A DNA stretch of 64,000 nucleotides. Origin: Stappia sp. 28M-7 (lineage in GTDB: Bacteria > Pseudomonadota > Alphaproteobacteria > Rhizobiales > Stappiaceae). Made by a program: the position numbers and the translations under genes. The stretch lies in NCBI RefSeq assembly GCF_014252955.1, contig NZ_JACMIA010000001.1, forward strand, positions 3,556,258 to 3,620,257, given 5' to 3'. Below are positions 404 to 47,477 of the stretch, piece after piece (position 1 is the first letter of the stretch; every line of letters begins with the position of its first letter). Under the pieces are notes generated by a model. It was not told the DNA's origin, did not search any database, and worked only from the letters and a program-made list of their open reading frames with translations.

Positions 404-1624
404 TCAACCGTCGATGGAGCTGAGGAAGCGGGAATAGTCCTCGGCAACCGAAGGCAACTCCTGCACGAACACCCATGCACCGTCCTGCCACTGGAACGCG
501 CCGTTGGTGGTGTAGGCCTGTCCGTTGCCATCGAACATGCGTCCGTCGATGGGGATGTATTGCATCACCGCCTCCTTCGGCACCGGCAGGTCCCGCAGGG
601 CCTTGGCCACGGCCGCGGCATCCTCGACCGTCCCGGCCTTCAGGATCGCATCGCGCAGCGCATAGAGTTGGTCATAGGCATAGGGCGAGCTTGGCGAGGG
701 CTGGACACCAAAACGTGCCGTGAAATTCTCGTGGTAGGCGCGACCGGTTTCGCCCGTCGACTGCAGGGTCAGTTCGGTCGGCCGCAGGTCCCACACGCCT
801 TCCATCTGCTCGGAGGAGGCGACGCGCAGGAACTGTTCCTCGCTGCCGCTGGTAAAGCCGTAGCGCGGCACATCGAGCCCCAGTTCCACCGACTGCCGGT
901 AGACGAAGGCCGCTGGCTCGACATACCCGACTACCAGCAACGCATCCGGCTCCAGCGCCCGGATCTTGGTCAGTTGCGGGCTCATGTCGCGATCTTTCAG
1001 GCCAAAAGCCTCGCGCGTGACAATCTCACCGCCGCCTTTGACGAACTCGCGCTCGAAAGCGTCGACATACATGGCGTAGAACGAGGTTTCGAGGGCCCCG
1101 ATCACAGCAACCCGCTTGTGGCCCTTCGAGGCGACGAAGGTTCCGGCTGCCGCCCCCGTGTAGTCGGCGGGCGGGCGGGTACGCACCAGATTGTCTATCC
1201 CGCGCGTGGTGATCGAGCGTTCGGCGGCATTGCCGACCAGCATCACCGCATCTTCATTCTGGATGAAGGAGGCCACCGCGCCGGTTGCCCCGGAACAGCA
1301 GAAGCCCAGCAGGAACCGCGCGCCATCCCGGTCGATGAGCTTGCGCACGCTGTTCGAGGCCTCGGTCGGATTGGCCTTGTCGTCATAGGACAGGACCGTG
1401 ATCTTGTAGGTATCCTCGCCGAGGCGGATGCCGCCGGCTGCATTCACCTCTTCCGCGGCCAGTTCCACCGCCCGTGCCTGAGGCACGCCATAAACGGCGG
1501 CGGGCCCGGTCAGCGCATCGCTGACACCGACCACCAGGTCCTTTTCCGCCGCGCCGGCCAGAGACGTGGAGGCTGCGAGCACGGCAGCAGCAAGCCCCGC
1601 GCCGATCGTGGATCTGCGTTTCAT
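404..1624 (-). CDS. Periplasmic substrate-binding protein of the Liv-type ABC transporter
   Basis: A 406-residue periplasmic binding protein (peripla_BP_6 / receptor ligand-binding fold) that delivers substrate to the LivH/M permease. The N-terminus MKRRSTIGAGLAAAVLAAST is a signal peptide ending near AGAAEKD. Family hallmarks include GVSDALTGPAAVYG and the AAEEVNAAGGIRLG segment. I chose the start at 1624 because AGGGAGGAA lies 5-6 bases upstream; the longer frame to 1651 leaves that site inside the gene. The ligand is unclear: it is LivK-like but may be an amide or urea binder. Its Shine-Dalgarno contains GGGAGGA, complementary over 7 bases to the loop of the sRNA near 46.05 kb (inference only). 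Confidence 0.88.
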   Translation of the reverse strand: MKRRSTIGAGLAAAVLAASTSLAGAAEKDLVVGVSDALTGPAAVYGVPQARAVELAAEEVNAAGGIRLGEDTYKITVLSYDDKANPTEASNSVRKLIDRDGARFLLGFCCSGATGAVASFIQNEDAVMLVGNAAERSITTRGIDNLVRTRPPADYTGAAAGTFVASKGHKRVAVIGALETSFYAMYVDAFEREFVKGGGEIVTREAFGLKDRDMSPQLTKIRALEPDALLVVGYVEPAAFVYRQSVELGLDVPRYGFTSGSEEQFLRVASSEQMEGVWDLRPTELTLQSTGETGRAYHENFTARFGVQPSPSSPYAYDQLYALRDAILKAGTVEDAAAVAKALRDLPVPKEAVMQYIPIDGRMFDGNGQAYTTNGAFQWQDGAWVFVQELPSVAEDYSRFLSSIDG

Positions 1625-1691
1625 GAGTTCCTCCCTAGTGTTGTTGTTCACGCCCGGTTCCGCCGGACGGTTTCGGTCTCCCGCGCTCCGC

Positions 1692-42700: not shown

Positions 42701-44715
<2,015 letters not shown>

Positions 44716-44778: not shown

Positions 44779-45675
44779 GTGCCGCTTGACTGGGACAAGC
44801 TGAGGATTTTCCACGCGGCCGCGCAGGCCGGCAGCTTCACGCATGCCGGTGACATGCTCAACATGAGCCAGTCGGCGGTCAGCCGGCAGGTCAGCGCGCT
44901 GGAGCACGACCTGAAGGTCCCGCTGTTCCACCGGCATGCGCGTGGCCTGCTGCTGACCGAGCAGGGCGAGGTGCTGTACCGCACCGCGCGCGAGGTGTTC
45001 ATGAAGCTGGAGGCCGCGCAGGCCCGGCTGACCGACAGCCGCGAAAAGCCGACCGGCGCCCTCCGCATCACCACCACCGTCGGCCTCGGCTCCACCTGGC
45101 TGACCGAACGGCTCAACGAGTTCATCGACCTCTATCCGGAGATGGACCTCAGACTGATCTTCGACGACGACGAGCTCGATCTGGGCATGCGCGAGGCGGA
45201 CGTGGCTATCCGCCTGCGCCAGCCCACCCAGCCGGACCTCATCCAGCGCAAGCTGTTCACCGTGCATTTCCACGTCTATGCCGCGCCGAGCTACATCCAG
45301 CGTTTCGGCGCTCCGAAGTCCGTCGCCGCCCTCGACGGCCACCGGATCGTCACCTTCGGCGAGCATGCCCCGCCCTATTTGCGCGACATGAACTGGCTGG
45401 AAACCGCCGGTTTGTCGCCGGGCGAGCAGCGGCGTTCGGTGCTGCGCGTCAACAACGTGGTGGCGATCAAGCGTGCGGTCCAGCGCGGCATCGGCATTGC
45501 CATGCTGCCCGATTATATCAACGAGGACAGCTCCGGCCTCGTGCAGCTGCTCCCCGAGGCGGAGGTGCCGAGCTTCGACACCTATTTCGTCTACCCTTCC
45601 GAGCTGAAGAACACTGCGCGCATCGCCGTGTTCCGCGACTTCCTGCTGGCCAAGGCAGAGCGCTGGACCTACTGA
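44779..45675 (+). CDS. lsrB: LysR-family regulator LsrB/VtlR
   Basis: A 298-residue regulator that begins PLDWDKLRIFHAAAQAGSFT and has the HTH MSQSAVSRQVSALEHDLKVP, closely like LsrB (Sinorhizobium) and VtlR (Brucella, Agrobacterium). Location next to trxB and just upstream of an AbcR-like sRNA matches that orthologue. In relatives it activates AbcR sRNAs and affects redox balance, lipopolysaccharide and host interaction. The start is GTG at 44779. The predicted protein contains no cysteine, unlike the Sinorhizobium protein for which cysteine-based redox sensing was described. Confidence 0.88.
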   Translation: MPLDWDKLRIFHAAAQAGSFTHAGDMLNMSQSAVSRQVSALEHDLKVPLFHRHARGLLLTEQGEVLYRTAREVFMKLEAAQARLTDSREKPTGALRITTTVGLGSTWLTERLNEFIDLYPEMDLRLIFDDDELDLGMREADVAIRLRQPTQPDLIQRKLFTVHFHVYAAPSYIQRFGAPKSVAALDGHRIVTFGEHAPPYLRDMNWLETAGLSPGEQRRSVLRVNNVVAIKRAVQRGIGIAMLPDYINEDSSGLVQLLPEAEVPSFDTYFVYPSELKNTARIAVFRDFLLAKAERWTY

Positions 45676-45974
45676 GCCAGGCTCGCCCCGCGCCCCTTTC
45701 TTGCTGCACCGCAAAATTGCGAAACAGGCCCCAATGCACCCCTCCATGCGGTCGTTCGAGCATCCTTGCGGGCAATCCTGCGAACATTTCGAATGCCGAC
45801 GCAGCAGGCATCGGCGTCTCCGCTGCCGCATCCGGCGGCACGGAGCAGCTGCGACAGGCTGCCGCACTGGCGTGAAATCAGGCACTTCGCCCGCCATACG
45901 GGCAAGATATCCGGCCGATATGAACCCCTGCGCAGGGCTGACGCGACCGCCTTGCGGAATATGCATAGCAGCCC
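45676..45974. other. Intergenic region between lsrB and the sRNA promoter
   Basis: About 300 bases with no gene that I can support. Repeated GCAG/CTGC-type words give weak hairpins only. I looked for a second, tandem AbcR copy, as found in several rhizobia, and did not see one. Confidence 0.5.
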
Positions 45975-45993
45975 TGCAAGAGTGCTTCTTGCA
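45975..45993. promoter_or_regulatory. LysR-type operator (probable LsrB/VtlR box)
   Basis: TGCAAG-N7-CTTGCA, a perfect inverted repeat with T-N11-A geometry. It overlaps the -35 element of the sRNA promoter, where LysR activators commonly bind, and the lsrB gene ends 300 bases upstream. Confidence 0.6.
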
Positions 45994-46017
45994 TAGGCGC
46001 GTTGTGCACTGCATATA
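45989..46017 (+). promoter_or_regulatory. Promoter of the AbcR-like sRNA
   Basis: TTGCAT, 17 bases, CATATA; a transcript would start near 46024. The -35 is shared with the LysR dyad. Confidence 0.6.
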
Positions 46018-46021
46018 AGCA

Positions 46022-46160
46022 ACAGGCTGTTGGTCTGCTTCGTCGCTACCTCCTCCCAGCGACGTATGATGCGACCAGCTGTTCCCCTCTGGAAGGTGAT
46101 TTCGCCACGCATGTGGCAAAATCGAATAACTGCCGGGCCTCTTGGCCCGGCATTTTTTTT
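46022..46160 (+). ncRNA. abcR: AbcR-like (alpha-r15 family) trans-acting small RNA
   Basis: A probable Hfq-dependent sRNA of about 137 nt. Hairpin 1 has stem CGTCGCT/AGCGACG and exposes ACCTCCTCCC in the loop (46048-46057), the anti-Shine-Dalgarno motif of AbcR RNAs. A second C/T-rich single-stranded motif, GTTCCCCTCT, follows at 46081; hairpin 2 is GCCAC-GCAT-GTGGC; the terminator is GCCGGGCC-TCTT-GGCCCGGC with eight Ts. Position downstream of lsrB matches rhizobial AbcR loci. In relatives these RNAs block translation of many ABC-transporter binding proteins, livK included. The exact 5' end is inferred. Confidence 0.75.
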
Positions 46161-46296
46161 GCCCGGATCACAGCCGCTTGTTATGCTGAGGACAGGGCCT
46201 GCCGTTTTCGGCCGCCCTCCCATTATGCCACCAGCCCCCAAGGCGGTGGATTAGATTTCCGGTATGCTGGCGCCTTGCCCTGAGGACGCGCCAAGC

Positions 46297-46326
46297 AAAA
46301 GGCCCGGCGCAGAGCACCGGGCCTTC
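46297..46326 (-). terminator. Intrinsic terminator after msrP
   Basis: On the minus strand AAGGCCCGGTGC and GCGCCGGGCCTT form a near-perfect stem around TCT, followed by TTG. It lies about 40 bases after the msrP stop. Confidence 0.75.
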
Positions 46327-46363
46327 GGATCGTCTGGAGAGAGCGGCCGAGTGGGGCGCACCC

Positions 46364-47329
46364 TCACATGTAGAGGTTCTCGCCCTCCAGCCCCTTGTAG
46401 AGGGCGGCGACCTGCTCGCCATAGCCGTTGAAGAGCTGGGTCGGCACCTGCTCGCCCGTCGGCAGCAGCTGCTCACGCGCCTGGCTCCAGCGCGGATGCG
46501 AGACCTCCGGATTGACGTTGGCCCAGAAGCCGTACTCCGCCGACTGGATCTCTTCCCAGAAGCTCACCGGGCGCTCCTCGACGAAGGAGAAGCGGACAAT
46601 CGACTTGATCGACTTGAAGCCGTATTTCCACGGCACGGCAAGGCGCAGCGGCGCACCGTACTGCTTGGCGAGCGGCTTTCCGTAAACGCCGGTGACCATG
46701 AAGGCGAGCTCGTTGGTCGCCTCGGCCAGAGTCAGCCCTTCCACATAGGGCCAGGGATACCAGGACGCCCGCTGGCCGCTGGCCGTGTCGGGATCCATGA
46801 AGGTCTCCATGCGCAGGTACTTCGCCTCCGGCTTGGGCGAGGCAAGGCGCACCAGCTCGGCAAGGGGGAAGCCGGTCCACGGCACCGCCATCGCCCAGGC
46901 CTCGACGCAACGGAAACGGTAGAGCCGCTCCTCCAACGAGACCTTCTTCATCAGATCGTCGAAATCCAGCACCTGCGGATTGTCGCAGAGCCCGTCGATC
47001 TTCACCTCCCACGGGCGGATCTTCAGCGCCTGCGCGGCGGAGGCGATCTGCTTGTGCGAGCCGAACTCGTAGAAATTGTTGTAGACGGAGGTAACACCTT
47101 CCGGCGTGATCTCGCGGTCGAGCGTGTAGGCCTCGTTGCGGTTTGCCGGATAGAGCCCCGCATTGGGGTCTTCCTCGGCAAAGGCGCGGCGCGGGAGCCC
47201 TGCCCCGCCGGCAATGGAAGCGCCGGCGATGCCGAGCCCGGCAAGAACCGAACGGCGATTGAAGAAGACGGCCTCGGGCGTCGCCTCGCGCTCGGGCAGT
47301 TCCCAGCTGCGTTTGCGGATGATGTTCAT
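46364..47329 (-). CDS. msrP: Protein-methionine-sulfoxide reductase catalytic subunit MsrP (YedY)
   Basis: A periplasmic molybdopterin enzyme that repairs oxidised methionines in envelope proteins. The 321-residue protein carries a Tat signal (FFNRRSVLAGLGIAGASIAG), the molybdenum-ligating Cys141 in YRFRCVEAWAMAVPWTGFPL, and YGAPLRLAVPWKYGFKSIKS near the cofactor. ATG at 47329, rather than the upstream extension. The heme-membrane partner msrQ (yedZ) is usually adjacent but is not in this window next to it; an MFS gene lies upstream instead. Confidence 0.93.
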   Translation of the reverse strand: MNIIRKRSWELPEREATPEAVFFNRRSVLAGLGIAGASIAGGAGLPRRAFAEEDPNAGLYPANRNEAYTLDREITPEGVTSVYNNFYEFGSHKQIASAAQALKIRPWEVKIDGLCDNPQVLDFDDLMKKVSLEERLYRFRCVEAWAMAVPWTGFPLAELVRLASPKPEAKYLRMETFMDPDTASGQRASWYPWPYVEGLTLAEATNELAFMVTGVYGKPLAKQYGAPLRLAVPWKYGFKSIKSIVRFSFVEERPVSFWEEIQSAEYGFWANVNPEVSHPRWSQAREQLLPTGEQVPTQLFNGYGEQVAALYKGLEGENLYM

Positions 47330-47477
47330 CGTGATGCGTCCTCTTCCAGTCCCTTCAGGACGCCCTTTGCAGACGTCTGACACCGTTTGACCTAGCGTGC
47401 GCACCCCATCCCGGCAAATCAAGTGCGGTTGAACGGCCCGTGCGGACCCCGTGAGCGAGCGCCGCCGGCACCCGGTG

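Follow-up and report, generated by a model that had tools for sequence, protein, structure and literature searches.

The segment around lsrB in Stappia sp. 28M-7 very probably holds the Stappiaceae version of the trxB-lsrB-abcR locus, in which LsrB would activate abcR and the RNA would repress transporter mRNAs through its anti-Shine-Dalgarno (aSD) motifs. Sequence comparison supports the presence, directly downstream of lsrB, of an AbcR-type RNA that is divergent from the rhizobial ar15 RNAs. The family is already known, and the Stappiaceae copies that were scanned with Rfam all lie below its cut-off. In the window, by which we mean the whole 64,000-nucleotide stretch of DNA analysed here, a trxB-like gene, lsrB and the RNA follow one another in this order on the plus strand (Table 1), and the trxB-vtlR order is also stated for A. 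tumefaciens in the available text of PMC7486931. The lsrB product aligned over its whole length with A. tumefaciens LsrB (PDB 9HH1) at 434 bits, which bears out the initial annotation in placing lsrB directly upstream of the RNA. The closest named lsrB locus is that of Stappia indica SBBC 49, whose LsrB is 99% identical. Convergent with the RNA lies a molybdopterin-oxidoreductase gene (46364-47422, minus strand; Pfam Oxidored_molyb), which we take to be possibly that of the methionine-sulfoxide reductase MsrP.

Table 1. Features of the trxB-lsrB-abcR locus, in window coordinates
Feature	Position	Strand	Basis
trxB-like gene, putative thioredoxin reductase	43726..44715	+	Pfam Pyr_redox_2, 7e-53
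lsrB/vtlR, LysR regulator without cysteine (298 aa, GTG start)	44779..45675	+	match to 9HH1
LsrB box GCATAGCAGCCCT (GCAT-N3-[T/A]G-N3-T), putative recognition site	45963..45975	+	about -60 to -48
Perfect dyad TGCAAG-N7-CTTGCA	45975..45993		overlaps box end and -35; lineage-specific
Promoter: -35 CTTGCA 45988-45993, 17-base spacer, -10 GCATAT 46011-46016	45988..46016	+	position-wise conservation
AbcR-type small RNA, predicted, about 138 nt	46023..46160	+	putative +1 at 46023 +/-1; 3' end at the T run
Hairpin 1	46029..46079	+	fold; covariation in both its helices
aSD1/M1 motif CUCCUCCC, hairpin 1 loop	46050..46057	+	motif as in S. meliloti; overlaps Brucella M1 CUCCCA
aSD2/M2 motif UUCCCCUC, between hairpins 1 and 2	46082..46089	+	motif as in S. 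meliloti
Hairpin 2	46097..46124	+	folds of single sequences
Intrinsic terminator	46131..46160	+	stem 46131-46152 plus eight T; covariation count

Homology of the RNA to the ar15 family

At Rfam's gathering score there was no match for the RNA. A lax scan of the window gave ar15 at 21.7 bits, short of its cut-off of 40, with ar14 (23.1 bits; cut-off 58.8) and anti-hemB (24.7 bits; cut-off 49.5) slightly higher and likewise short of their own cut-offs, and the alpha-r15 covariance check proposed in the initial annotation thus came out below Rfam's threshold. Because all three scores were weak, Rfam alone was undecisive, and 80 named lsrB loci were therefore taken, these being the best 80 of 404 confirmed in the search.

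For the covariance model R1 we used 25 copies, all of them from Stappiaceae and with no rhizobial sequence among them. At 42 bits or more, R1 placed a copy downstream of lsrB, and on its strand, at 65 of these best 80 of 404 loci, a count that includes its own 25 building copies, which match by construction; at the remaining 15 it found no such RNA within 2.5 kb. Applied to the rhizobial-clade loci (L105, L107-L111 and L114), R1 matched seven of seven at 42.0-50.4 bits. When 20 loci were scanned with Rfam, an ar15 match at or above the cut-off coincided with the R1 match in six of the seven rhizobial-clade loci and in Methylobrevis L104, which lies outside that clade and passes at 40.4 bits, and lax settings gave subthreshold ar15 matches at the right place in six of ten further loci. 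The RNA thus shows independent homology to ar15 RNAs, along with the placement of aSD1 and aSD2 and a position adjoining lsrB/vtlR. The AbcR (alpha-r15) identity originally claimed for it is upheld by the R1 cross-match and the motifs, and falls short at the Rfam ar15 cut-off.

The LsrB of Stappia papers with quorum-sensing titles is presumably an unrelated autoinducer-binding protein. Literature searches for AbcR1 with Labrenzia and for AbcR with Roseibium returned no paper, in a search that left most subscription papers outside its reach and leaves absence unproven. Rhizobial small RNAs have been surveyed in PMC3927594, beside which PMC3712013 is cited (both from the available portions of their text).

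A conserved LsrB box in the promoter

An E. coli-type promoter scan of 45650-46400 found nothing; the promoter in Table 1 was drawn from position-wise conservation, for which GCATAT was itself the alignment anchor, and can be set beside the consensus CTTGAC-N17-CTATAT given in the available text of PMC8844928. The LsrB/VtlR box has been described as GCAT-N3-TG-N3-T, at -61 to -49 of PabcR1 (PMC7486931 and PMC8844928, available sections). The motif pattern was found at 64 of the best 80 of 404 loci, from which 66 copies were taken; the 56 promoters with a GCATAT -10 were aligned, amounting to 53 distinct sequences with the window uncounted, and the ten without GCATAT were set aside. All 53 distinct promoters carry the box in the form GCAT-N3-[T/A]G-N3-T, 50 of them at the same start position, and 22 carry the strict form GCAT-N3-TG-N3-T, from which the box of the window differs at a single base, with A in place of T at 45970. 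The strict form was also present in nine of the ten promoters set aside, with none in L112. One further pattern, TGCATANCWGNNNTGC, chosen after the alignment had been seen, matched the genome once, at this locus, and as about one chance match is expected by our own estimate, the single match proves little.

The initial annotation had taken the TGCAAG-N7-CTTGCA dyad as the LysR operator. The dyad is present and perfect, and its right arm, CTTGCA, is the probable -35, so that the reported overlap with the -35 is correct. As an operator it fares poorly, being perfect in two of the 53 distinct promoters (S. indica SBBC 49, L035, and Stappia sp. WLB 29, L037) against 53 of 53 for the box just upstream. 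Information at dyad positions -44 to -41 is 0.20-0.34 bit, compared with 1.6-1.7 for GCAT. Perfect inverted repeats of this geometry (arms of six bases, seven bases between them) number 37 in the window, the dyad included, so that the dyad by itself is not beyond chance. Judged by this comparison, the dyad is a chance mirroring of the box end (TGCA) and the -35 (CTTGCA) in the S. indica group, and the conserved candidate LsrB site is likely the box from 45963, beside the proposed dyad.

The dyad sits next to the -35, a common contact point for LysR activators on DNA. Together with its perfection, the left half that it shares with the box end and its intact state in L035 and L037, this would fit a dyad that serves as the main LsrB operator of the S. 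indica group, replacing or extending the older box. We regard this as unlikely given the conservation of the dyad in two distinct promoters against 53 for the box, the near-random positions -44 to -41 and the number of such repeats in the window. Beside the box as the conserved candidate site, the dyad may be a second contact site.

Structure and motifs of the RNA

The fold of 46019-46160 has an energy of -58.5 kcal/mol (z -4.4), matched by none of 200 shuffles. In the alignment of 25 copies, both partners have changed in 14 of 23 base pairs, a number reached by none of 500 shuffles. The count is favoured by the choice of pairs, which come from the consensus fold that this alignment itself gave, and seven of the 30 consensus-fold pairs (two small helices, columns 66-76 and 78-89) had been dropped beforehand. 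Both structural elements of the original description, a hairpin with the motif in its loop and a terminator whose stem is followed by eight T, are there, and the loop does carry the letters CTCCTCCC.

Folds of the window RNA, of three other Stappiaceae copies and of the rhizobial L105 and L107 have a three-hairpin layout in common: hairpin 1 with aSD1 in its loop, aSD2 in the spacer, hairpin 2 and the terminator. Around hairpin 2 of L081, the centroid departs from the best fold. An extra hairpin as a Stappiaceae novelty was considered and rejected, as the folded rhizobial copies L105 and L107 have the same layout. The aSD2 motif sits within a near-invariant stretch (46079-46101). Both aSD1 and aSD2 have been dissected in S. 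meliloti (available text of PMC8844928), and the Brucella motifs CUCCCA (M1) and GUUCCC, as given in the available part of PMC5461406, overlap them.

These features also bear on whether the RNA could belong to another small-RNA family with a CCUCCUCCC loop (NfeR1/ar14, CcsR-type or anti-hemB-like) and stand beside lsrB by chance. The slightly higher ar14 and anti-hemB scores in the window point that way, as does L086, which scores 33.4 for ar14 against 31.6 for ar15; both window scores, however, fall below their families' cut-offs, and the lsrB adjacency, the LsrB box, the GUUCCCCUCUGG spacer and the cross-match to rhizobial ar15 loci all favour ar15, which makes another family very improbable. 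Even less credible, to the point of being nearly negligible, is a leader, untranslated tail or coding region in place of an independent RNA, since the overlap of six-frame open reading frames with the region is offset by promoter-like and terminator sequences of its own, covarying stems and many indels between copies.

Spread and copy number

All 87 family genomes searched matched at E 0.1 or better, and the score was at least 65.9 bits in 86 of them; G072 is the sole genome of the 87 without a strong copy (E 0.04 only). The genome of Stappia sp. 28M-7 holds one copy at 140.6 bits in the R1 search, with the next match at 21.0, in agreement with the single copy seen originally. Two weak Rfam ar15 matches (20.7 and 18 bits) were considered as a second AbcR copy and rejected, as neither had an aSD motif; the search that gave them also matched 12 of 14 control genomes.

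A tandem pair of the RNA occurs in two Stappia genomes, G009 and G013 (the same contigs as L042 and L043), at 3572-3984 of L042 and 3572-3985 of L043, with an LsrB box before each copy. The copies within a genome are identical at 130 of 136 and 132 of 136 positions; between the two genomes, the first copies are identical at 133 of 136 and the second at 135 of 136. The aSD2 motif of G009 and G013 has one C fewer. From these identities, the pair looks like a recent duplication, separate from the rhizobial AbcR1/AbcR2.

In Roseibium/Labrenzia, four loci (L060, L069, L071 and L073) have no copy within 2.5 kb of lsrB, and in three others (L064, L065 and L066) the RNA lies 1.2-2.4 kb from it. As the RNA is distant or missing near lsrB and yet present in 86 of 87 genomes, the stretch between the two may often have received insertions in this group.

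An LsrB without cysteines

The LsrB of the window has no cysteine at all. In the alignment with 9HH1, C144, C236, C244 and C273 of A. tumefaciens LsrB correspond to V142, V234, M242 and V271, so that the C144/C273 pair of the thiol sensor is absent. According to the available text of PMC11975290, all four cysteines of A. tumefaciens LsrB are reversibly modified, and changing C273 to Ser raised H2O2 sensitivity, which changes at C144, C236 and C244 did not. Lacking cysteine, the window LsrB cannot operate the thiol switch described for LsrB, and its activity must depend on a factor apart from its own thiols.

The 81 LsrB proteins compared (the best 80 of 404 and the window) comprise 49 without cysteine, seven with both C142 and C271 (window numbering) and 25 whose cysteines lie at other positions. 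The C142/C271 pair sets the rhizobial rows apart, on one side of a branch with SH-aLRT 100 (by a quick method); because long branches meet at the rhizobial split, the root is tentative and the pair may have been either gained or lost. Nine rows of the Stappia group, L037 for example, have one cysteine, at residue 220, and include L044 and L048 (S. sediminis and Hongsoonwoonella) and a metagenome-assembled genome (L039), so that the absence of cysteine is not fixed in the group.

We tentatively suggest, at somewhat below even confidence, that the Stappiaceae and several neighbouring families have an LsrB-AbcR circuit free of a thiol sensor, in which LsrB would use its effector pocket to sense a metabolic or small-molecule signal. 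If so, the cysteine switch of rhizobial LsrB would belong to a single clade that either added it to the circuit or retained it there, and the common core of the circuit would be the control of nutrient uptake by AbcR.

Complementarity to transporter genes

AbcR in rhizobia shuts down nutrient-uptake genes. As its known targets include solute-binding-protein genes, such genes were chosen for a test of complementarity: 18 Peripla_BP_6 and 20 SBP_bac_5 genes of this genome (n=38), each with a zone of 230 bases before the domain, and as controls 30 of 56 LysR genes with a 66-base zone. Complementarity of eight bases to the aSD2 region was found at nine of the 38 genes, compared with a mean of 2.26 in permutations keeping the Shine-Dalgarno word (2 of 500 as high) and 2.96 in those keeping the core GAGGGG (4 of 500). 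At nine bases, five of 38 matched, against means of 0.63 (1 of 500 as high) and 0.86 (0 of 500). When the permutations were rerun from different random numbers, 4 of 400 were as high at eight bases and 2 of 400 at nine. At seven bases there was no clear excess, with 14 of 38 against 8.84 (54 of 500) and 9.13 (49 of 500). One of 30 LysR genes matched at eight bases, a control that is weak because its zone is shorter (66 against 230 bases). For the loop motif aSD1, there was no excess over permutations at the solute-binding-protein genes (8-mers in 4 of 38, permutation mean 2.75), and the loop was rejected as chief seed. There is thus some sequence support for aSD2, rather than aSD1, as the motif with excess complementarity before solute-binding-protein genes here. 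Genome-wide, complements of the aSD2 12-mer with at most one mismatch showed no enrichment: there were 8, counting the RNA itself, and the reversed sequence gave 15.

By our own reading, the nine aSD2 matches lie at the likely ribosome site in L128, L129, L141, L150 and L152, and possibly in L153; that of L130 is upstream of the ribosome site, and those of L149 and L163 appear to be inside coding sequence. L150 (SBP_bac_5, G000:C1:1732421) has two adjacent 11-base aSD2-complementary sites, TCCAGAGGGGATCCAGAGGGGA, just before its ATG, which places them roughly 243-222 bases ahead of the domain match. In S. meliloti, prbA is regulated through two contiguous aSD2 sites (PMC8844928, available text).

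The test in G009 and G013 together used 60 of the 65 matches to solute-binding proteins; the other five, of which four were SBP_bac_5 and one was Peripla_BP_6, had no locus. The excess for the aSD2 region was weak there at eight bases (6 of 60, mean 3.58, 85 of 400 as high), and at nine bases 4 of 60 matched (mean 0.84, 19 of 400). Four of the nine genes (L129, L149, L150 and L153) have an orthologue among the G009/G013 loci fetched, and complementarity there was weaker or absent. Matches to the altered aSD2 motif of these genomes were not raised, with eight bases matched in 4 of 60 and nine bases in none of the 60, and co-evolution of aSD2 with its targets, which had been considered, was not shown.

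Pairing energies for both motifs were stronger at solute-binding-protein starts than at LysR starts (38 against 27 genes), with SBP_bac_5 start codons chosen by a rule that is often wrong and with three of the 30 LysR loci (L173, L191 and L192) dropped because they gave no start. As solute-binding-protein starts also bind the 16S end more strongly, these energies cannot separate targeting from a strong ribosome site. The initial annotation had pointed to a 7-base match between the loop and the ribosome site of a liv binding-protein gene of the window, and the match exists (GGGAGGA before the ATG at 1622-1624 of a Peripla_BP_6 gene, 404-1651, minus strand). It is uninformative given the lack of excess for aSD1 at solute-binding-protein genes, and since many strong ribosome sites would give a match of this type, it carries little weight.

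The proposed circuit

Building on the computed RNA homology and box conservation, we infer a circuit in which the RNA would be transcribed from its own promoter once LsrB binds the box centred near -54 and activates it, as the conserved box suggests. By homology, the two unpaired anti-Shine-Dalgarno motifs of the RNA would then base-pair at the ribosome sites of mRNAs for transporters, chiefly for ABC solute-binding proteins, and so lower their translation; the complementarity at aSD2 lends this step some sequence support. Repression of the targets would presumably depend on Hfq. Published LsrB control of AbcR in S. meliloti varies: in the available text of PMC8844928, AbcR1 alone is LsrB-dependent and AbcR2 needs RpoH1, whereas that of PMC7486931 reports no LsrB control of the abcR RNAs under the conditions of that study.

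With this locus, the LsrB-AbcR circuit, known from work on Rhizobiales that live with plants and animals, reaches a family that is mainly marine, and the Stappiaceae alignment could let Rfam ar15 be widened. It also separates the activation of AbcR by LsrB from redox sensing by LsrB, two matters usually told together. As a cysteine-free LsrB still adjoins a conserved AbcR promoter, what LsrB senses becomes directly testable.

Comparison with known systems

The closest known system is AbcR1/AbcR2 of Sinorhizobium, Agrobacterium and Brucella (alpha-r15, RF02345), with which the Stappia RNA shares its placement downstream of lsrB/vtlR after trxB (as in A. tumefaciens), an LsrB-type box near -60 that differs from the strict form at one base, hairpin 1 with the CUCCUCCC loop, the UUCCCCUC spacer, hairpin 2 and the terminator. 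Sites complementary to aSD2 before some solute-binding-protein genes are a further likeness, the double site of L150 resembling that of prbA. The Stappia RNA differs in its length (138 nt, against 121 and 114 nt in S. meliloti according to the available text of PMC8844928), its score below the Rfam cut-off, its single copy and its diverged stems. Where Stappia has tandem copies, both have an LsrB box, whereas in S. meliloti AbcR2 depends on RpoH1, as far as the available literature text states.

A. tumefaciens LsrB/VtlR (9HH1) shares full-length similarity (434 bits) and the trxB neighbour with the LsrB of the window, from which its four cysteines are absent. NfeR1 (alpha-r14, RF02344) has an anti-Shine-Dalgarno loop motif and a terminator in common with the RNA; the window RNA differs from it in scoring 23.1 against a cut-off of 58.8, in adjoining lsrB and in having the ar15 GUUCCCCUCUGG spacer.
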